From NCBI RefSeq assembly GCF_021117385.1, contig NZ_CP088252.1, positions 2,998,501 to 3,062,500 of the forward strand: a stretch of 64,000 bases of DNA, written 5' to 3'. The translations under genes were made by a program, and so were the position numbers. The notes under the pieces are model-generated. The model was not told the origin of the DNA. It saw only the letters and a list, made by a program, of their open reading frames with translations, and ran no database searches. This DNA is from Frateuria soli. Lineage in GTDB: Bacteria > Pseudomonadota > Gammaproteobacteria > Xanthomonadales > Rhodanobacteraceae. Each line of letters begins with the position of its first letter. The stretch's first letter is position 1. Shown here one piece after another: positions 22,894-34,678 of the stretch.

Positions 22894-24056
22894 GGCTGCG
22901 CCTCCGAGGCGGCGCTGGCCGGCGTCGCCGGTGCGGCGCTACCGGCCTGGCGCAGCTGCGCGACCATGTAGAAGCGCTCCTTGCCGCTGGCCGGATCAGG
23001 CTGGATGCTGCCCTGGAAGTTGGGATCGCGCACGATCTTCGAATCCTTCAGTGCATCGATCAGCGCCGCGGCCTGCGGCGCCTGGCCCTGGAAGCCGACC
23101 TGCCCGCTCGGGTCGACGCTCAGCCGCTCCAGCCATGCGCTCTGCGGCAGCCGGCGGGTGAGATCGAGCAGCAGGTCGAGCATCGTCACGCGGTTCTGCT
23201 TGCGCCGGACCAGGAAGCTCGCCGCGCCGGCGTTGTCCTGCAGCTCCTGGCGCAGGGCCGCGACCTGCTGCGCCTCGGCCTGCATGTCCTGCACCTGCGC
23301 CTGCATCGTGGCGAGCGCCTGCTGACGGTTGTCGAGCCATTGCGACAGCGCCAGCACCAGCAACAGCACGGCGGCACCGGCGAGCGCGAGGTTGAGGCGC
23401 TGGCGCGGGTTGGTGCGATAGGGCACGCGGGCAGGCGGCAGCAGGTTCACGCCCAGCCGACCGGTGCCTTCGGCCACGTCGACCGCATCGACGCGGATGC
23501 CGGCGCCCTCGAGCTCGGCCAGCAGCGGATCGAGCGTGTCGCGGGGCACCGCCACCAGTTCGGCGAAGAAGCGGCCGGCCGGGGCCGGCGTGTCCAGTTC
23601 GAGCACGGCGTAGTACACCTGCTCGACGCGGAAGGGGGTCTGCCGGTCCATCTCGAAGGCCCCCACCTGCTGCAGGTCGTCGGCCGCCGCGCGCGGGAGC
23701 AGCAGGCGCCGGCGCAGGACCGCACTCGCCGGCAGCAGCAGCGCCAGGCGCAGGTCTTCGCGATCGGTTTCGCGCACGGCCGCCGAGAGCGCCGCCTGTT
23801 CGATCGCCGGCTCGGCGCCGCGTGGCCATTGCGCGCGCGCCTCCGGCTCGCCGGCGCGGCGCAGCTCCCAGTGCCCGTCGGTGCGCTGCAACAGGTACCA
23901 CTGCGCGCCGCCGCCGAACAGCCGGCCCCACGAGGCCGGCAGCAGTGCGCCGAGCTCGCCGGACCACCAGGCGAAGAACCGCGGCAGCGGCGAGGCCCGC
24001 CAGGCGCGACGCGCACGGTCCAGCTGCGGCCGCAGCGATTGCGTTGCGTTGGTCAT
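22890..24056 (-). CDS. gspL: type II secretion system protein GspL
   Basis: This 388-residue protein recruits the ATPase GspE to the inner membrane. The cytoplasmic actin-like part (about residues 50-215) is shorter than in enterobacterial GspL and looks PilM-like in places (AFEMDRQTPFRVEQVYYAVL). One membrane span follows (LNLALAGAAVLLLVLALSQWL, about 243-263), then a coiled-coil (MQAQVQDMQAEAQQVAALRQEL) and a periplasmic PilN-like domain with LDLLLDLTRRLPQSAWLERL. The start overlaps the gspK stop as ATGA. Confidence 0.9.
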   Translation of the reverse strand: MTNATQSLRPQLDRARRAWRASPLPRFFAWWSGELGALLPASWGRLFGGGAQWYLLQRTDGHWELRRAGEPEARAQWPRGAEPAIEQAALSAAVRETDREDLRLALLLPASAVLRRRLLLPRAAADDLQQVGAFEMDRQTPFRVEQVYYAVLELDTPAPAGRFFAELVAVPRDTLDPLLAELEGAGIRVDAVDVAEGTGRLGVNLLPPARVPYRTNPRQRLNLALAGAAVLLLVLALSQWLDNRQQALATMQAQVQDMQAEAQQVAALRQELQDNAGAASFLVRRKQNRVTMLDLLLDLTRRLPQSAWLERLSVDPSGQVGFQGQAPQAAALIDALKDSKIVRDPNFQGSIQPDPASGKERFYMVAQLRQAGSAAPATPASAASEAQP

Positions 24057-24901
24057 TCGCGGTCACCCTCCCGCCAGTGCAACACCGCGTAGGGCTGCGC
24101 GCCCGGACGAACGCCCTGCAGGCGTACGGTGGCATGCAGCACGGCGCGCGTGCCGTCGGCCATCGTGGCCTCCGAGCGAATACTATGCGTCACTCCGTTG
24201 CCCGCGAACAGGGCGGCCACGCCCGGCCGCGTATTCCTGCGCGCGGCCAGCACCTGCGCGACCCGCTCGGGCGTCATGCCGGGGATCGCGCCCAGCGCCA
24301 GCGGCTGGGCCGTGTTCGGATCGGGGCTTTCGCGGCCGGACCAGATGGTGATCGCACCGGCGATGATGCGGTACAGCGAGGGCGTCATGCCGGCCACCTG
24401 CTGCAGCTCCTCGATACTCAGGAACGGCGAGTGACGCGGCTGGTAGCCGTTGGCTGCATACACCTGCGCACCCACCTTCCGGCCTACGTTGAATTCCCGC
24501 CAGTCGACCACCGCGGCGGCCATCTTCCGCGCCTCGTCGGGGCGCAGGCCGGCGGCGCGGAACAGCCCCTGCAGCACGATCGGCGAGGCGCTGTTCAAGT
24601 CCACCTTGCCGCCCTCGTCGACCGCGCTGACCTGCACCGTGGCGCCATCGAAGCGGAACGTGTAGGGCCGGCCGTCAGCCTGCCAGCGCTCGGCCAGCCG
24701 CGGGTCCTGCAGGCCATAGATGGCGCGGGACAGGCCCGCCTCGGCCGCGTAGTGCGCCTGCGTCTGCGCGAACTGGAACCGTGCCTGCAGGCCCTCGGTG
24801 CGCGCGGTCATCGCGTAGCCGCCCAGCATGATCGCCAGCAACGTGCAGGCCCACAGCACCAGCAGCAGCGCGACGCCACGCTGGCCGCGACGCGCGCTCA
24901 C
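24053..24901 (-). CDS. gspK: type II secretion system minor pseudopilin GspK
   Basis: GspK caps the pseudopilus tip. The start is a GTG at 24901 overlapping the gspJ stop as GTGA, giving 282 residues with a short prepilin leader (VSARRGQRG before VALLLVLWACTLLAIML). The usual Glu at position +5 is absent, as is normal for GspK. The globular part contains the saposin-like and alpha-helical blocks (VDLNSASPIVLQGLFRAAGL, FLSIEELQQVAGMTP). It acts with GspI and GspJ in the tip complex. Unlike gspH, gspI and gspJ, its leader carries no palindromic insert. Confidence 0.88.
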   Translation of the reverse strand: MSARRGQRGVALLLVLWACTLLAIMLGGYAMTARTEGLQARFQFAQTQAHYAAEAGLSRAIYGLQDPRLAERWQADGRPYTFRFDGATVQVSAVDEGGKVDLNSASPIVLQGLFRAAGLRPDEARKMAAAVVDWREFNVGRKVGAQVYAANGYQPRHSPFLSIEELQQVAGMTPSLYRIIAGAITIWSGRESPDPNTAQPLALGAIPGMTPERVAQVLAARRNTRPGVAALFAGNGVTHSIRSEATMADGTRAVLHATVRLQGVRPGAQPYAVLHWREGDRE

Positions 24902-25590
24902 GGCTGCCTCCAAGCGATGGCGGGGCCGGCGGCATCCAGCATCGCGAACTGGCGCTGGTTGGCCGAGGCATCCACGCGCAGCGGCACGGTCAGCTGCGGC
25001 CAGTAGCCGGCGCCGGGCAGCTTGAGGTCGATGCGCACCAGCTGCGGCAGGCGGTCGCCCTGGCGCCAGTCGTCCCGCCACGGACCGGCGCGGCCCCGCT
25101 GGTCCACCCCGCGATAATGGAAGCCGGCGTCGTGCACGTCCTCCAGCAGCACCTGCGGCGGCCCGGGCTTGAGCGGTTCGCCGCTGGGCGGCAGCAGCGC
25201 AAAGCGGACCTGCAGGCGCTGGCCACCCTTGCCGTTGTCGACCAGCTCGAGCGTCTGCACCTGCGGCCCGAGCTTGCCGAGGTAGCCGGGCAAGGGCGCC
25301 ACGAAGCTCATCGAGTCCGGCTCGCCACGGAAGAAGATCGCCTCGTCGTTGTCCGGGTTCTTGGCCAGTTGCTGGGTCATCGCCTGCGCCAGCTCGTTGC
25401 GCAGGAACTGTTGCGCCGAACGCACCGCGTCCAGCCGCTCCACCGCCGCGGTACCCGAGCGCACGCTGTGCGAGGCGGTGCGGATGCCGGAGTAGACGCC
25501 CACCAGCAGCAGCGCGAGCAGCGCCAGCGCGGCGAGCGTTTCGAGCAGGGTGAAGCCGCGGGCGCGTGTTGCGCGCCCGGGAGTGGGCAT
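24898..25590 (-). CDS. gspJ: type II secretion system minor pseudopilin GspJ
   Basis: With the proximal ATG at 25590 the protein has 230 residues and a 12-residue leader ending ARG, followed by FTLLETLAALALLALLL with Glu at +5. This ATG lies inside the left arm of a palindromic element. A second possible start is the GTG at 25680, which overlaps the gspI stop as GTGA and reads in frame through the whole element, adding 30 residues. The proximal start gives a normal prepilin leader, the distal one matches the coupling used throughout the operon. The rest is a typical GspJ (LGPQVQTLELVDNG, VLLEDVHDAGFHYRG). Confidence 0.87.
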   Translation of the reverse strand: MPTPGRATRARGFTLLETLAALALLALLLVGVYSGIRTASHSVRSGTAAVERLDAVRSAQQFLRNELAQAMTQQLAKNPDNDEAIFFRGEPDSMSFVAPLPGYLGKLGPQVQTLELVDNGKGGQRLQVRFALLPPSGEPLKPGPPQVLLEDVHDAGFHYRGVDQRGRAGPWRDDWRQGDRLPQLVRIDLKLPGAGYWPQLTVPLRVDASANQRQFAMLDAAGPAIAWRQP

Positions 25591-25666
25591 TCGGGATTCG
25601 GGATTCGGAAGGGTACGCACCCGCACGCGGCCGGCCGCCTTTGCGAAGCCCGAATCCGGAATGCCC
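25585..25666. repeat. palindromic element copy 3 (gspI/gspJ junction)
   Basis: Left arm (25585-25607) and right arm (25644-25666) are 23-base inverted repeats built on GATTCGGGATTCG with two mismatches; the 36-base centre is GC-rich. The element fills the space between the gspI stop and the gspJ prepilin leader and is open in the gspJ frame. Confidence 0.85.
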
Positions 25667-25676
25667 GATCCCGTCC

Positions 25677-26123
25677 TCACGACCCGGCCCCTTGCGGCTG
25701 CGGCCCACCCACCCGCAGGGTGCTGAAGCGCGCGCTGTAATCGTGCCCGGCGCTCTTCCACATCACGTCCAGGTCGAGCCGGTAGAGCTTGAGCGGCGAG
25801 GCCGGCGCACGCGGTTGCGGGCCGCTCGCCTGCGCGGTGGGCAGTGGCTGGAACGGCCGCACGTCGAGCTGCCAGCGATAGCGTTCGTCGAAGCGCCCGC
25901 TGCTCTGTCCGACGCGGATCGGCTCCAGCACGAACGCGCTGTCGAGCAGGCTGCGTGCCCACATCGCCGCCGCGCTGCGTTCGGCCGAGCGCGCGGTGAG
26001 GTTCAGGGAACTGCCCGCCACGCGCATCAGCGAGGCGAAGGTGATCGCCAGCAGCAGCACGGCGGCAATCACCTCGAGCAGGGTGAAGCCGCTGGCGCGC
26101 GTCGCGTGCCCGCGATTCGGCAT
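25677..26123 (-). CDS. gspI: type II secretion system minor pseudopilin GspI
   Basis: The ATG at 26123 gives 148 residues with leader MPNRGHATRASG followed by FTLLEVIAAVLLLAITFASL, Glu at +5. This ATG is inside the left arm of a palindromic element. An alternative GTG at 26213 overlaps the gspH stop as GTGA and reads in frame through the element, adding 30 residues. The globular part is short and ends with a strand-rich stretch (LYRLDLDVMWKSAGHDYSAR) typical of GspI. It initiates the pseudopilus tip with GspJ and GspK. Confidence 0.85.
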   Translation of the reverse strand: MPNRGHATRASGFTLLEVIAAVLLLAITFASLMRVAGSSLNLTARSAERSAAAMWARSLLDSAFVLEPIRVGQSSGRFDERYRWQLDVRPFQPLPTAQASGPQPRAPASPLKLYRLDLDVMWKSAGHDYSARFSTLRVGGPQPQGAGS

Positions 26124-26200
26124 TGGGGATTCGGGATTCGAAAGGGCCCGCAAGCGTACGCGACTCGCCGCCTTTGCGAATCCCGAATCCCCAATGCCGA
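26117..26200. repeat. palindromic element copy 2 (gspH/gspI junction)
   Basis: This is the best-preserved copy: arms of 24 bases (26117-26140 and 26177-26200) are perfect inverted repeats, separated by 36 bases. The arms consist of TCGGCATTGGGG plus two GATTCG units. The whole element is open in the gspI frame. Confidence 0.9.
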
Positions 26201-26209
26201 TTCCCGTGG

Positions 26210-26665
26210 TCACGACGTCACCACGCTCACCGCGCCGGTCAGCCAGGCCACGTTGACCTGCCAGCGGCGCCCGCCGCGCTGCAGGATGATGTGGCCGCCG
26301 GTCGAACTGCCGTCGGGGAAGAAACGGATGCGGCCGGTGTGGCTGTCCGGCTGGTCCTCGCGGGCGCTGGTGATGGACAGGCGCATGCCCCTGGGCAGCG
26401 CCACTTCCCTGCCGCCGGCCGCCTGGTAGCTGGCCGATTTCGTGTCCAGTTCGAAGGTCTGCTCCTTGCCCTTGACGATGGCCTGCGCGCGGGTGGCGCG
26501 CAGCGCGGCGGCCAGCTCGACGCTGGCCGCGCGGGTGCGCGCGCTGGCCAGTCCCTGGGTCACCGAGACCGCGGCCGCGGCGGCGGCAATGCCGATCAGC
26601 AGGATCACCGCGAGCATTTCGAGCAGGCTGAAGCCGCGGCGGCGCGCGCGTCCGGGATCCGGCAT
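26210..26665 (-). CDS. gspH: type II secretion system minor pseudopilin GspH
   Basis: With the ATG at 26665 the protein has 151 residues: leader MPDPGRARRRG, then FSLLEMLAVILLIGIAAAAA with Glu at +5. An upstream ATG at 26752 overlaps the gspG stop as ATGA and reads in frame through a palindromic element, adding 29 residues. The globular part (RATRAQAIVKGKEQTFELDT, GMRLSITSARE, GRIRFFPDGSSTGGHIIL) is typical of GspH. It probably joins the core pseudopilus to the tip complex. Confidence 0.86.
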   Translation of the reverse strand: MPDPGRARRRGFSLLEMLAVILLIGIAAAAAAVSVTQGLASARTRAASVELAAALRATRAQAIVKGKEQTFELDTKSASYQAAGGREVALPRGMRLSITSAREDQPDSHTGRIRFFPDGSSTGGHIILQRGGRRWQVNVAWLTGAVSVVTS

Positions 26666-26737
26666 CCGGGATTCGGGGTTCGGGAAGGCGCGCAAGCGCC
26701 GGCCGCCCGCGTTCGCGAATCCCGAATCCCGAATGCC
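26661..26737. repeat. palindromic element copy 1 (gspG/gspH junction)
   Basis: Left arm 26661-26682 and right arm 26716-26737 are 22-base inverted repeats with a few mismatches, again built on GATTCGGG units. It occupies the gap between the gspG stop and the gspH prepilin leader and is open in the gspH frame. Confidence 0.85.
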
Positions 26738-26748
26738 CAGTCCCGGCT

Positions 26749-27180
26749 TCATTGCCAGTTGCCGATGTCCTGGCTGTAGCCATCGCCGCCGGGCTTGCCG
26801 TCCTGGCCATAGAACACCAGGTCATAGCTGCCGTGCTCGCCGGGGGCCTTGTAGCCGAAGGCATGGCCGAACGGATCGACCAGATCCGAGGGCTTGGCGT
26901 AGGGGCCCTGCCAGTTCGGCGCGTTCGGCGGCTTCTTGACCAGCGCGTCGAGGCCGGCCGGCGGCGAGCCGTTGTCCAGCGAGTAGTTCTCGATTTTCTG
27001 GCCGAGCGTCATCAGCTGCGCCTTGCCCGCGCCGTACTTGCCCTTGTCGACACTGCTGCCGACCTGGCGCACCACGATCGCGCCGATGATGCCGATCAGC
27101 ACGATCACCGCGAGCATTTCGAGCAGGGTGAAGCCGCGGGCGCGACGCGCACGCATCGGGCCGGTCCGTTGGTGTTTCAT
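26749..27180 (-). CDS. gspG: type II secretion system major pseudopilin GspG
   Basis: GspG is the main subunit of the pseudopilus. The ATG at 27180 is chosen because GGAGAG lies eight bases upstream; a GTG at 27192 is less likely. The 143-residue product has leader MKHQRTGPMRARRARG and mature FTLLEMLAVIVLIGIIGAIV, with Glu at +5. The C-terminal region has the calcium-loop features of major pseudopilins (DPFGHAFGYKAPGEHGSYDLVFYGQDGKPGGDG fragment, with DGKPGGDG). It lies 14 bases after the gspF stop. Confidence 0.94.
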   Translation of the reverse strand: MKHQRTGPMRARRARGFTLLEMLAVIVLIGIIGAIVVRQVGSSVDKGKYGAGKAQLMTLGQKIENYSLDNGSPPAGLDALVKKPPNAPNWQGPYAKPSDLVDPFGHAFGYKAPGEHGSYDLVFYGQDGKPGGDGYSQDIGNWQ

Positions 27181-28411: not shown

Positions 28412-28432
28412 GTCAGAGGCCCAGCGCGAGCT

Positions 28433-28488
28433 GCTCCCTCTCCCCCATCTTTGATAGATGCGGGGGGAGAGGGCTGGGGTGAGGGGCC
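28433..28488 (+). repeat. CTCCC-palindrome element, variant copy
   Basis: CCCTCTCCCCC and GGGGGGAGAGGG flank a small CATC...GATG stem, followed by CTGGGGTGAGGGGCC. It lies between gspE and gspF and faces a second copy at 28579-28619. Confidence 0.75.
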
Positions 28489-28578
28489 GACGCTTGCGCA
28501 ATGGATAGGGCGGAGCGCGGCGCGCTGGTGCTTTTCAGCATGACGGCCGCTGCTCGACGGGAGTTACGGGCGAGCCCC

Positions 28579-28619
28579 GGCCCCTCACCCCAACCCTCTC
28601 CCCGGCGGGGAGAGGGAGC
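28579..28619 (-). repeat. 41-base CTCCC-palindrome element, reverse copy
   Basis: The reverse complement of this copy matches 11974-12014 at all but one position. With the variant at 28433-28488 it forms a large inverted repeat with 90 bases between the copies. The gspE stop follows within eight bases. Confidence 0.8.
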
Positions 28620-28626
28620 CAGATGT

Positions 28627-30565: not shown

Positions 30566-32968
30566 TTACCAGCCCACGCCCAGGCCCACGCCGCCGGAGG
30601 TTTCGTCGCCGCTGACCGCGGCACCGAAGGTCAGGCTGGCGTGCGAGGACAACTGGCGCGAATAGCCCACCGCCAGCGCGCCACGGTCGCGGTAGCCACC
30701 CACTCCCACGCCCAGCCGGTTGGGCGTGTCGATGCCCTGCGTGCTGAACGCCATCTGCGCCATCGCCGAACCCATCGCCCCGACCTGGTCCAGGCGCGTG
30801 TTCACGCTGCGGAAGCGGTCATCGACCTCGCGGCGGAAGCTGGCCAGGTCCAGCGAGACGTTGGCCAGGCGCTGGTCCGCGTAGGCCTGCGCGCGGGCCA
30901 GGGTCTGCCGGTCGCCGGCATCGGCGTAGGTCCTGGCGGTGGCGATGGCCTGGTCGACCTGCCCGGTATTGGCTGCGTCCGTGGCCTGCGTGCCCGCCGC
31001 GACATTGACGATCTGCCGCTGCTGGCTGGCCGTGCCCACCGAAACGGTTTGGGCGCGGTCGGCCACTGCACCCTGGCCGAGAGCGACCGCGTCGCTGGCA
31101 CTGACGCTCGCACCTTCACCCACGGCGACCGCGTTGGTCGCGTTGGCCGCGATGGTGGTGTTGGCACCGACCGCCGTGCTGCCGTCGGCATTTACGCGGG
31201 CATTGCCGCCGATGGCCGTATCGTTCGGGCCCGCCGCATAGCTGTCGCCGCCGATCGCGGTGCCATGGTCGCCCTGTGCCGAGGCGGCCGATCCCAGTGC
31301 CACGGCCTTGCTGCCGGTCGGGGTGCTGGCCGCGGTGTCGCCATCGACACTGAGGTAGGTCATGTCGGCGGTGCTCGACTGGAGGCTGCCGAGCTGCCCC
31401 TCGATGTTGGTCACCCGCCCGTCGATATGGGTTACCTGGACGCCCAGGTCGCTCAGCGCCTGGCCGTTGGCCCCGACGAGGTCGGCTACCGCATCGAGCT
31501 GACCCTTGTTCACCGCGTCGGTGGCGTAGACGCCGTCGCCCACGTTGGTGACGCGGCGTTCGCTGCCCATCGCGCCGACCGATACCGTGTTGTCCTCGTC
31601 GGCGACCGATCCGGCACCCAGCGCCACGCTGTTGTCGGCCGGGGCATAGGCGCCCGCACCCAGCGCCACCGCTGCCGCGCCATCGGACTCGCTGCCGTCG
31701 CCGACGGCGACGCTGTCGGCATTCGATGCGATCGAACCGACGCCCAGCGCTACCGAATAGTCACCCGAGGCCGTGCTCTGCACACCCGACGCGAGGCTCG
31801 CGAAACCGAGGGCGCTGGCGCCATAGCCGTAGGCGCTGGCGAACTTGGCGGCCACGCTGAAACTGCCCAGCGCGTTGGCGTAGTCGTCGGCGGCGAAGCT
31901 GTCCAGGCCGATGGCGATCGACTGGCTGCCGAAGGCGCCGGTGTTCGGATCGCCTTGGGAACCGATGGCGATGCTGTAGCGGCCCTGGGCGAAGGCGTCC
32001 GCACCAAGCGCGGTCGACGAGGCGTCGAGCGCCTGGGCGTTGTTGCCCACGGCGGTGGCCTTGTCGGCGGCTGCGAGCGCGCTGCTGCCCATGGCCGAGG
32101 CGCCCGTGCCCTGCGCCCAGGCGCCATTGCCGCTGGCCAGCGCGAAGTTGCCCAGCGCGGTGGCCTGGTAGCCGTTGGCCATGGCGCCGGTGCCGGAGGC
32201 GTAGGCCAGCGAACCGAGCGCAATGGCTCCCTCGCCCGCGGCGGTGGTGGCCTCGCCGGACATCGGGTCCGGGTCGCCGCCGCCGATCGCGATGGTGCCG
32301 CGGTCGGAAGCCTGGGCGTTGGCGCCGAGCGCCACGCTCTCGTAGCCATCGGCGCCCGCGTTGCTGCCGCCGGCAAACGAACCCTGGCCGGTGGCGTAGG
32401 CAAGCGAACCGACTGCCGTGCTGTCGACGCCATCGGCTCCGGCGCCAGCGCCGATCGCGGTGGCGCCGAAGGCGCTGGCTTCGGTGCCGTACACAGTGCC
32501 GTCGAAGTCGGTGTAGTTGCCCCCGACCGCGGTGGCGCTCTCGTCGCTGGCCATGCTGTCCGTGCCCACGGCCAGGCCGTACAGCGAGGACGTGTAGGCG
32601 CGCGCACCCACTGAGGTGGACCAATCGCCGTCGGCGCCCGCATTTTCACCCAGGGCAACCGAGCCATGGCCGGCTGCGTTCGCATACAAGCCCAGTGCGG
32701 TGGCATAGAGACCGGCATAGGCGTTGTGACCGCCCGCCGTGCCGCCTTCGAGCACGAACGGATCGACGAACGCCGGGTCCGTACCCTGATCCGCGACAAA
32801 GACCGCCGCGTGGGTCGGGGCCGCCATCACCACGAGCGCCATTGTCGTGCCCAGCGCCAGCGCACGAGTACGCCTGCCCGAACCGGATCCCTGGCTTCGG
32901 GCAAGTTCGGAGGCAACCGTCACCAGACCCAACGCCCGATTCCAGACCTTGCTGTAGATTTTGTTCAC
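30566..32968 (-). CDS. YadA-like trimeric autotransporter adhesin
   Basis: This 800-residue surface adhesin (type Vc secretion) forms a homotrimer anchored in the outer membrane. The start is the GTG at 32968, since it gives the extended signal peptide region MNKIYSKVWNRALGLVTVAS and has GGGAGA upstream. The long signal ends near THAAV (about residue 54). Residues about 75-440 are many left-handed beta-roll head repeats of the form AxAxGxxAxA (for example ATAVGNNAQALDASSTALGA). Neck and stalk segments follow (VGDGVYATDAVNKGQLDAVADL, ATQATDAANTGQVDQAIATA). The last 75 residues are the YadA anchor ending in Trp. Ligand unknown. It has no passenger protease or toxin domain. Confidence 0.93.
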   Translation of the reverse strand: MNKIYSKVWNRALGLVTVASELARSQGSGSGRRTRALALGTTMALVVMAAPTHAAVFVADQGTDPAFVDPFVLEGGTAGGHNAYAGLYATALGLYANAAGHGSVALGENAGADGDWSTSVGARAYTSSLYGLAVGTDSMASDESATAVGGNYTDFDGTVYGTEASAFGATAIGAGAGADGVDSTAVGSLAYATGQGSFAGGSNAGADGYESVALGANAQASDRGTIAIGGGDPDPMSGEATTAAGEGAIALGSLAYASGTGAMANGYQATALGNFALASGNGAWAQGTGASAMGSSALAAADKATAVGNNAQALDASSTALGADAFAQGRYSIAIGSQGDPNTGAFGSQSIAIGLDSFAADDYANALGSFSVAAKFASAYGYGASALGFASLASGVQSTASGDYSVALGVGSIASNADSVAVGDGSESDGAAAVALGAGAYAPADNSVALGAGSVADEDNTVSVGAMGSERRVTNVGDGVYATDAVNKGQLDAVADLVGANGQALSDLGVQVTHIDGRVTNIEGQLGSLQSSTADMTYLSVDGDTAASTPTGSKAVALGSAASAQGDHGTAIGGDSYAAGPNDTAIGGNARVNADGSTAVGANTTIAANATNAVAVGEGASVSASDAVALGQGAVADRAQTVSVGTASQQRQIVNVAAGTQATDAANTGQVDQAIATARTYADAGDRQTLARAQAYADQRLANVSLDLASFRREVDDRFRSVNTRLDQVGAMGSAMAQMAFSTQGIDTPNRLGVGVGGYRDRGALAVGYSRQLSSHASLTFGAAVSGDETSGGVGLGVGW

Positions 32969-33097
32969 GAACACTCTCCCTGTCCGCCAGCGCCGCGTGC
33001 GCCCGGCGGACGTGCATTCACTCTCGAAGGGGTGGTCGGCCGTACATGCGACGGCCGACCGGTCTGCCGCGAGCCGCGAAGCCCGCGCTCTAAGGCA

Positions 33098-34678
33098 TCA
33101 GCGACAACTGACCCCGACCGCACCGAAGGCGGCCTCGACGTCGGTCTGCGGGTAACCACGATCGGTCGCCGCCTGCTCGACGCCGCAGGCGCCCGAGTCG
33201 AACGTTTCATCCGCATGCCAGTACAGCGCGTTGGCGTCGTGGAACACCTCGAACGCCGTGCGCGTGTTCCATCCGGCGGTCCTGGCCAGGGTGCAGAACG
33301 CGCGGTTGTAGACGCCGCTGGAGTAATGCACGTCCAGCCTGTCGTTGTACTGGCTGGCGTTGTCGATCGAGGAGCCGTCGTTGCTCGGCGTGCACATGTC
33401 GCGCAGCGCCGCCATGCCCAGCAGCGGCACGGTGTCGGGCTTGACGATCTCGCCGCCGGTCATGAAATCGTTGCTGCCGCGGTCGAAGTACTTCGCCGCT
33501 TCGCCGGCCATGTCCGAGAACGCCTCGTTCATGCCGCCGGACTGTCCGACGTACTCCAGGCCCGAATGCTGCTCGGTGAAGCCGTGGCTGATCTCATGCC
33601 CGGTGATGTCGAGCACCACGAACGGGTAGAAATACCGGTCGCCATCGCCGAACACCATTTCGGAGCCGTCCCAGAACGCATTCTCGTAGTTGGCGCCGTA
33701 ATGCACCCACATGTGCAGCTGCATCGGGCTGCCATCGCCATTCTTCAAAGGCGGAGCGCCGAACCAGTTGCTGTACATGTCGTAGACCACGCCACCGAAA
33801 TGGTGCGCGTCGTTGATCGCCGAATAGGCGCCATTGATCTCGTCGCCCATACTGGTCCAGCCGGCCGGGTTGGTGCCGGCGCAGCCGAACGACCAGAGCG
33901 TCACGCGCTGGCCGCCGGCCACGTTGTAGGTGGCGACCTTGTCGTTCTGGAGATAGCAGGTGCTGCCGATGCGCGTGGCGCTGAGCAGCTCGCGGCCGGC
34001 GCCGGAGCCGTCGTAGTGGTACAGGCCGATCAGGTCGTTGCCGCCCGGACCGTTGGCGTCGACCGCGGTCGGGGTGCCGGTGCCCGGCGCGCGGCGACCG
34101 GTGGTCAGTCCGTCCCAGTGGCGCAGCACCTCGCCGGTGTCGGCGTCGACGATCGCGGTCGGGCGGGAGATGCGTCCGTTGGACGTCACCAGATACGAGG
34201 TGCGGTAGGCCAGCCGGGCGTTGCCCTTGGCCTGCGGGTAGACGAACAGCTCGCTGCGGACGTTGCTCACGGCTAGTGCGTGCTGGCCAAGCTTGCCCTG
34301 CAGGGCGGCCTGCGCCTGCGCACCGTCGAGTCGCGGACGCACGGAATGCAGCTGGCCGGCCAGGCTGGCCTCGGCTTCGCCGAGGGCGCTCACCACGTTG
34401 CCGCGGGCATCGCGTTCGACGACCAGGCTGCGTCCGTATACCGGCACTCCCTGGAAGGTCTGCCATTCACGGGTCTTGACGGTGCCGCGCACCGTTCTGG
34501 CGCGCGCACCGGCGACGAAGGTGCTGCCCTGGCCCAGGCCCAGGCGATTGGCCAGCGTAGCCGGCGCGAGTTGGCCGAGGTGCCCGGCACGGATATGGAC
34601 CGGCGTGGCGGCGCACAATGAAACCGACGCACACCCCAGCGCGGCGAGCATGGCGCCGACGAGCTTCTTCTGGAACAT
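33098..34678 (-). CDS. secreted M4 family (thermolysin-like) metalloprotease
   Basis: This 526-residue pre-pro-protease has a signal peptide (LVGAMLAALGCASVSLCAAT), an FTP/PepSY-type propeptide (about 25-190, with TREWQTFQGVPVYGRSLVV and ADTGEVLRHWDG) and an M4 catalytic domain. Zinc ligands are His361 and His365 in HEISH and Glu385 in GGMNEAFSD; the catalytic base is Glu362. A later DVHYSSGVYNRAF carries the usual substrate-binding His. No C-terminal PPC domain follows, so the mature enzyme is compact (about 33-36 kDa). Position next to the type II system suggests it is a substrate. GGGGGAAG precedes the ATG. Confidence 0.94.
   Translation of the reverse strand: MFQKKLVGAMLAALGCASVSLCAATPVHIRAGHLGQLAPATLANRLGLGQGSTFVAGARARTVRGTVKTREWQTFQGVPVYGRSLVVERDARGNVVSALGEAEASLAGQLHSVRPRLDGAQAQAALQGKLGQHALAVSNVRSELFVYPQAKGNARLAYRTSYLVTSNGRISRPTAIVDADTGEVLRHWDGLTTGRRAPGTGTPTAVDANGPGGNDLIGLYHYDGSGAGRELLSATRIGSTCYLQNDKVATYNVAGGQRVTLWSFGCAGTNPAGWTSMGDEINGAYSAINDAHHFGGVVYDMYSNWFGAPPLKNGDGSPMQLHMWVHYGANYENAFWDGSEMVFGDGDRYFYPFVVLDITGHEISHGFTEQHSGLEYVGQSGGMNEAFSDMAGEAAKYFDRGSNDFMTGGEIVKPDTVPLLGMAALRDMCTPSNDGSSIDNASQYNDRLDVHYSSGVYNRAFCTLARTAGWNTRTAFEVFHDANALYWHADETFDSGACGVEQAATDRGYPQTDVEAAFGAVGVSCR

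Follow-up and report, generated by a model that had tools for sequence, protein, structure and literature searches.

Three consecutive pseudopilin genes of the type II secretion system (T2SS) of Frateuria soli, gspH, gspI and gspJ, each carry a long palindrome in the region that encodes the prepilin leader, which raises the question of where these palindromes come from and whether they are made into protein. The genes lie in a 64,000-nt stretch of DNA (the window; contig NZ_CP088252.1, positions 2,998,501 to 3,062,500) that is part of a 3.49 Mb single-contig genome, with gspG-H-I-J-K on the minus strand. The window case is most aptly summed up as a set of heptad palindromes that are probably translated as part of the leaders and removed with them; of wider reach is the lead that the repeat class has a gene-bearing parent. 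We assign a probability of roughly two in three to the reading that the inserts are short, gene-less copies of a gene-bearing heptad palindrome, translated in the gspH, gspI and gspJ leaders and then removed.

Heptad palindromes in pseudopilin leaders

Each of the three leaders holds one imperfect palindrome composed of GGGATTC-like units and their complement (Table 1). A first-pass annotation of this DNA had described the three elements as having inverted arms of 22–24 bases. An arm search, a three-way alignment (mean column identity 83%) and RNA folding bear out the elements and the inversion, but with mismatches allowed the arms measure 42–54 bases (74–83% complementary) around spacers of 11–24 bases, and their unit is the heptad GGGATTC. 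The predicted folds are all strong (−73.9, −84.1 and −76.3 kcal/mol with z of −5.1, −7.8 and −2.9 for gspH, gspI and gspJ, respectively), with 0/200, 0/200 and 1/200 shuffles folding as well, the case being least strong for gspJ. The sequence GGGATTCGGGATTCG occurs 37 times in the 3.49 Mb genome, overlapping tandems included, and its reversed control 0 times; an Rfam scan of the window gave no family at gathering score.

The recurrence of such palindromes was examined in 80 related T2SS loci, retrieved by GspF, plus the window, whose T2SS is closest to that of Frateuria flava among the loci compared (GspF 94%; tree). With the window included, 79 gspG, 79 gspH, 77 gspI and 76 gspJ loci allowed measurement of the gap between the preceding stop and the first mature residue. 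The element-free state, which the first-pass annotation had suggested seeking at the gspG–gspK junctions of relatives, is present there: the gspJ gap is 14 nt in 39/76 loci. Long leaders hold palindromes built from several different heptads, namely GGGATTC (read as GIRDSGF and ESRIPNP), GGGAATG (GNGEWGM and HSPFPIP), GGGAACG (GNGERGT and RSPFPVP) and GGGACTC (GTRDSGL and ESRVPSP). Among leaders of 60 to 400 nt free of N, 68 of 181 reach a stem score of at least 28, compared with 1 of 177 coding controls, and any of 15 shuffles reached 28 in 1 of the 181. A strict expression identifies 55 of these 68 as heptad palindromes; the other 13 include irregular palindromes and unrelated repeats (e.g. 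loci L094, L097 and L148).

Palindromic leaders number 14/79 for gspG, 27/79 for gspH, 17/77 for gspI and 10/76 for gspJ, so that the earlier description of gspG and gspK as element-free holds in the window but does not extend to the gspG leaders of relatives. On the tree, palindrome presence changes at least 12, 20, 12 and 6 times for gspG, gspH, gspI and gspJ, respectively, and the counts thus do not stem from one inherited event. At other coupled junctions, added sequence is rare, with 4/74 (K–L), 0/72 (L–M), 0/39 (M–N) and 1/76 (J–K) cases. The arms covary: in gspH the mean arm score is 48.1 within an element versus 18.5 across species, and 11 of 38 predicted pairs have changed on both sides.

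This covariation, together with the strong folds, is what would be expected if the hairpins were kept for expression control, with a stem downstream of gspG and of every coupled start setting mRNA stability or translation and thereby pseudopilin ratios. The palindromes are also commonest right after gspG, the major pseudopilin gene (27/79 leaders, versus 17/77 for gspI and 10/76 for gspJ). Their patchy presence, the many changes on the tree, and the lack of a common regulatory logic among the ruvC, argG, nadE and fliA sites described below make this explanation unlikely.

Reading frame, start codons and the probable fate of the leader

Reading frames were compared in a strict-heptad set of 44 gspH, gspI and gspJ leaders and in a broader palindromic set of 54 (27 gspH, 17 gspI, 10 gspJ). 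The window gspJ copy is not among the 44, as its arms do not match the strict expression. At 75/77 gspI and 76/76 gspJ junctions the preceding stop is overlapped by an ATG or GTG codon, and the gap from that stop to the cleavage site is 2 mod 3, i.e. in frame with the overlapping start, in 76/77 gspI and 76/76 gspJ loci; for gaps of at least 45 nt the figures are 27/27 and 19/19. The gspH start is not the overlapping codon in every locus: 18 of 21 strict-heptad gspH leaders are 2 mod 3, and the remaining three start a few bases after the stop. All 54 palindromic leaders and all 44 strict-heptad leaders are open from an upstream start. The window elements are likewise open in the coding frame, as previously noted, and the distances of 87, 90 and 90 bases given for their coupled starts and in-element ATGs are also correct.

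It had further been proposed that the ATG contributed by the element supplies the normal leader; this is not supported, although it may still apply to the window itself. An ATG inside the 3′ arm occurs in 7/54 palindromic leaders and in 3/44 strict-heptad leaders (L085 gspJ, window gspH and window gspI), and 19/44 strict-heptad leaders contain no ATG, GTG or TTG beyond the 5′ arm. In the window, the sequence preceding the in-element ATG is C-rich and devoid of anything Shine-Dalgarno-like, and the ATG itself is base-paired in the predicted stem. Its rarity in the 3′ arm makes it probable that the in-element ATG arose by local chance.

If the palindromes were untranslated intercistronic hairpins, GspH, GspI and GspJ would start at the 3′-arm ATG with normal leaders of 11–12 residues. 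All three window genes have an ATG 33–36 nt before the cleavage site, most other copies in the genome are intergenic, and several of the next genes plainly begin downstream of the copy. We nevertheless find this improbable: 41 of the 44 strict-heptad leaders are without a 3′-arm ATG, the coupled-start frame is kept in every long gspI and gspJ gap, and the window ATG lacks a Shine-Dalgarno sequence in its C-rich surroundings.

Translation of the element followed by its removal with the leader is, judging from the sequences, probably what happens at these genes. In gspH, gspI and gspJ the copies are placed in frame, downstream of the coupled start codon and ahead of the basic prepilin leader. 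A ribosome initiating where that codon overlaps the preceding stop would read through the entire palindrome, extending the leader by about 30 residues, and prepilin peptidase would then cut off the palindrome-encoded residues with the leader. Such removal would explain why inserts are tolerated at this site.

Several observations count against this part of the reading. The late ATG is present in all three window genes, gspJ included. Of the 14 commonest heptads, 13 are open on both strands (the arms are stop-poor), and several non-coding copies also have open frames. Openness alone is thus weak support, and the argument is carried by frame-matching and by the missing later ATGs; the same property would make the heptads harmless passengers once their length fits. 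Nor do other pilin-type genes share the feature: eight of the 12 N_methyl matches in the genome lie outside gspGHIJ (two of them not located), and the six readable leaders among them hold no element. Within 200 nt before pseudopilin starts, a convergent heptad pair is found in 64/311 cases in Rhodanobacteraceae and in 1/79, a single match that looks like chance, in another family of the same order (f2, probably Xanthomonadaceae; 20 loci). The idea of prepilin leaders as general landing sites was rejected, since neither the six readable leaders of this genome nor the 20 f2 loci support it.

A separate observation concerns the gspI–gspJ junction of a Rhodanobacter metagenome-assembled genome (L160), where 863 nt of open sequence (about 288 codons) lie in frame ahead of the mature GspJ start.

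Copies across the genome and a gene-bearing form

A BLAST search of the genome gave 69 pieces at 30 places, of which 28 were kept, 25 outside the window and 3 inside. Two were dropped as chance: 1288367, which lies inside a gene and matches the loop only, and 3348377, a 14-base match that was not read. The 25 outside places were read with a home-made gene finder, their orientation being judged by eye. The first-pass annotation had called for a genome-wide count and a test for bias to gene starts. Of the 28 places, 24 have co-directional neighbours, 3 have convergent and 0 have divergent ones, and 1 falls within nadE; nine contribute coding sequence (gspH, gspI, gspJ, ruvC, argF/argG, hslV, fliA, ibaG and nadE).

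In nadE (L076:2300-4006), a heptad palindrome adds about 30 in-frame residues. The short state is found in four other genomes of the genus (G022, G151, G152 and G154), and a fifth (G153) has a loop of intermediate length with no clear heptads. The first in-frame starts of ruvC (TTG and GTG) and the sole upstream start of argG (ATG) lie in the element loop, so the 3′ arm would be translated there if these frames are expressed; in relatives, ruvC carries other heptads in frame (L252, L253, L256 and L258; 4 of 20 ruvC loci were unreadable by motif). A single element (L071:2474-2651) would thereby serve two proteins: N-acetylornithine carbamoyltransferase ends in its residues QGIGIRE, and argininosuccinate synthase would begin at the ATG of its loop. 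Residues beyond the end of the family model number 30 in FliA (a C-terminal tail at L064:5748-5880), 13 in HslV and 7 in ArgF, these tails being mostly element sequence. IbaG, too, ends in residues that an element encodes.

The copy between accB and accC (L077:2199-2642; about 2867.7–2868.1 kb) is new in kind: it carries a PF05635 gene between its heptad arms and is thus a gene-bearing form of the heptameric repeat class. PF05635 is the family of the 23S rRNA intervening-sequence protein, a four-helix bundle. The arms are 383 bases apart in an element of about 440 bases, and the frame of the gene, by eye, begins in the 5′ arm. The genome has no other PF05635 match, and the product of this gene resembles Xanthomonas XCC0516 of structure 2GSC (E 3.5e-43). 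Of 20 genomes compared at this junction, three have an insert of 459–465 nt (F. soli itself, G152, in which the gene is split between frames, and G159) and 17 have none (14–38 nt). The other element copies fetched from the F. soli genome contain no PF05635 open reading frame (ORF), and no four-helix-bundle gene is present in any of the 80 related T2SS loci.

Matches to PF05635 occur in 42 of 117 Rhodanobacteraceae genomes and in 44 of 249 phylum-wide genomes. Taking the best-scoring first, we scored 44 of the 51 listed Rhodanobacteraceae places, 35 places from other Pseudomonadota, and 16 loci hand-chosen from 29 plasmid records (15/16 cyanobacterial). Inverted arms flank the gene in 37/44, 20/35 and 14/16 of these, respectively, compared with 26 of 1448 random placements of equal length (24/1198 and 2/250 in two runs). 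At an arm score of at least 28, the first batch had given 29/30, 18/29 and 14/16, and slightly different limits gave 19/29 for the other Pseudomonadota, in agreement with earlier runs. The best repeat period is 7 in 50 of the 51 loci with a score of at least 36, and arm spacing is narrow (medians 380, 390 and 396), giving a whole unit of about 440–470 bases. Phages had no PF05635 match.

On cyanobacterial plasmids the four-helix-bundle gene is found within operons, for example at cas10–cmr3 and cas6–cas4 (L349, L351 and L357). One of these three CRISPR-gene cases, that of Pseudanabaena (L357), is without inverted arms; there, long AAAGCTA/AAAGCCA heptad arrays at about 1410–1500 and 1860–1950 flank the gene and look direct rather than inverted.

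The short and long forms share heptads, genomes and kind of place. Where the arms meet the loop, an AAAGC-like motif, picked after inspecting the data, is present at 14/37 short-copy ends and 11/52 long-form ends, with a background of 72/1730. Some genomes with short copies have no PF05635 gene (e.g. G022). The link between the two forms is supported, not proven.

A competing account is that the arms arise from local heptad slippage and arm-to-arm copying with no mobile element involved, the PF05635 genes being passengers that inserted into hairpins. Mixed-type heptads are mirrored within single elements, arm type varies between species at one place, and protein and arm sequences do not correlate in Rhodanobacteraceae, all of which favours this account. 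The loop-edge motif, post hoc as it is, lies above background in both short and long ends, and the narrow arm spacing and the recurrence in three phyla likewise count against it; we hold this account to be rather unlikely.

Our preferred reading is that the long form would be the complete element and the short copies its miniatures by descent, the window inserts among them, and that the four-helix-bundle protein, with which the arms are associated, may help to propagate or maintain them. Against it weigh (i) 20 further PF05635 loci, mostly weaker matches, with arms in 8/14 Rhodanobacteraceae and 2/6 others; (ii) a plasmid-only run with the same 14/16 and a higher null of 19/482, probably because of low-complexity flanks; (iii) the non-independence of the loci, which reduce from 30 to 8 distinct sites in Rhodanobacteraceae (11 of the 30 share accB–accC), from 29 to 16 elsewhere, and from 16 to 14 on plasmids; (iv) the correlation of arm with protein sequence, which is weak elsewhere (0.31 and 0.49) and at r 0.02 in Rhodanobacteraceae led us to reject protein–arm specificity there; (v) the state of accB–accC in five other same-genus genomes, four empty and one with the split gene, which does not demonstrate recent movement; (vi) the lack of an evident target duplication in the two alignments, nadE and accB–accC, whose spacers differ too much for certainty; and (vii) the ruvC and nadE copies, which demonstrate that the inserts can do without a cleaved leader.

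A broader statement, that heptameric repeats form the arms of a single, widespread kind of PF05635-carrying element (Pseudomonadota, Cyanobacteriota and one Gemmatimonadota locus), that the protein maintains or moves the arms, and that miniatures create in-frame termini, repeatedly in Rhodanobacteraceae pseudopilin leaders, seems to us evenly balanced between true and false. In diversity-generating retroelements, the related four-helix-bundle protein bAvd binds both nucleic acid and the reverse transcriptase. By analogy, this suggests, and does no more than suggest, that PF05635 proteins might chaperone an RNA or single-stranded DNA hairpin.

The gene-bearing copy offers a concrete candidate for the nature of heptameric repeats and for a protein travelling with them, and it proposes a testable function for PF05635, a widespread family without an assigned one. 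In the pseudopilin leaders, nature would have run one experiment several times over, turning repeats into protein ends in three successive genes of a single machine, where the extra peptide is predicted to be cut away. If true, the reading would allow tests of how a poorly understood class of bacterial repeats arose and spreads.

Relation to known repeats and neighbouring features

In cyanobacteria, heptameric short tandem repeats are called STRR. G-rich heptameric repeats have been described in Xanthomonas and Nostoc, with 70 and 75 convergent pairs in two Xanthomonas genomes (Rehm et al. 2015, PMC4692102). The F. soli repeats share with them the tandem G-rich 7-base units, the convergent pairs and the location, mostly between aligned ORFs and near the upstream one. 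The published unit is GGGAATC, whereas that of F. soli is mainly GGGATTC. With tandem G-rich heptads and 24 of 28 places between co-directional genes, the unit, arms and placement are those of the xanthomonad and cyanobacterial heptameric repeats, a class already known. What differs from the published description is the gene-bearing long form and the predicted translation of copies: the available text of PMC4692102 contains none of the terms four helix, S23, IVS, intervening, transposase and "in frame". Among the titles and abstract openings covered, which leave out most subscription journals, no literature joining heptameric repeats with PF05635 was found.

The first-pass annotation had likened the inserts to Rickettsia palindromic elements, which insert in frame into protein genes, metabolic ones included (PMC10969869). 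The likeness holds for in-frame placement (gspH, gspI, gspJ, ruvC, argG and the internal nadE copy with its short state in four same-genus species); period-7 arms, a mainly intergenic location and coding overlap at gene ends set the present repeats apart. The long form recalls the Coxiella 23S rRNA intervening sequence (PMC4990558), which measures 428 nt where the long form has about 440, closes in a terminal stem of 28 bp and carries in its loop an S23 ORF of the same protein family. Unlike that sequence, the long form resides in protein operons and on plasmids, has tandem-heptad arms and is accompanied by abundant gene-less miniatures; at the loci checked, accB–accC and the plasmid gaps beside protein genes, PF05635 does not lie inside 23S rRNA.

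Short palindromes scattered between genes are also typical of repetitive extragenic palindromic (REP) sequences with their REP-associated tyrosine transposases (RAYTs) and of miniature inverted-repeat transposable elements (MITEs). A RAYT link was rejected, since the copies closest to the two Y1_Tnp matches (2265723 and 3474530) lie at distances of about 155 kb and 48 kb. A target duplication of the kind expected of MITEs is, with the reservation about spacers given above, not evident at nadE or accB–accC.

The features of the window are collected in Table 1. The coupled ATG of gspH overlaps the gspG stop. The profile search gave no GspI model match, and gspI was assigned from operon position and relatives.

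Table 1. Palindromes, start codons and pseudopilin genes in the window (window coordinates)
Feature	Position	Strand	Remarks
Heptad palindrome, gspH leader	26652..26746 (arms 26652-26693/26705-26746)	-	alignment, fold; open from ATG at 26752
Heptad palindrome, gspI leader	26100..26217 (arms 26100-26147/26170-26217, 83% complementary)	-	coupled GTG at 26213
Heptad palindrome, gspJ leader, units less regular	25577..25680 (extended arms 25560-25613/25638-25691)	-	coupled GTG at 25680
gspH from coupled ATG	26210..26752	-	40-residue leader then FSLLE; GspH 38.1 bits, N_methyl 29.6 bits, both above cut-off
gspI from coupled GTG	25677..26213	-	42-residue leader then FTLLE; N_methyl E 6e-4, below its cut-off
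gspJ from coupled GTG	24898..25680	-	42-residue leader then FTLLE; N_methyl above cut-off, T2SSJ slightly below
In-element ATG, gspH	26663..26665	-	33 nt before cleavage site; not conserved in relatives
In-element ATG, gspI	26121..26123	-	36 nt before cleavage site
In-element ATG, gspJ	25588..25590	-	36 nt before cleavage site
gspG, element-free in window	26749..27180	-	61-nt gap; relatives have palindromes in gspG leader
gspK, element-free, start approximate	24053..24901	-	start overlaps gspJ

Three further features of the window were noted by eye. The gspE–gspF gap (28412-28626) holds a different type of repeat, readable as LTPALSPR, and beside the secretion genes lie a large repetitive, surface-protein-like ORF (30566-32974) and a probable secreted metalloprotease (33098-34678).

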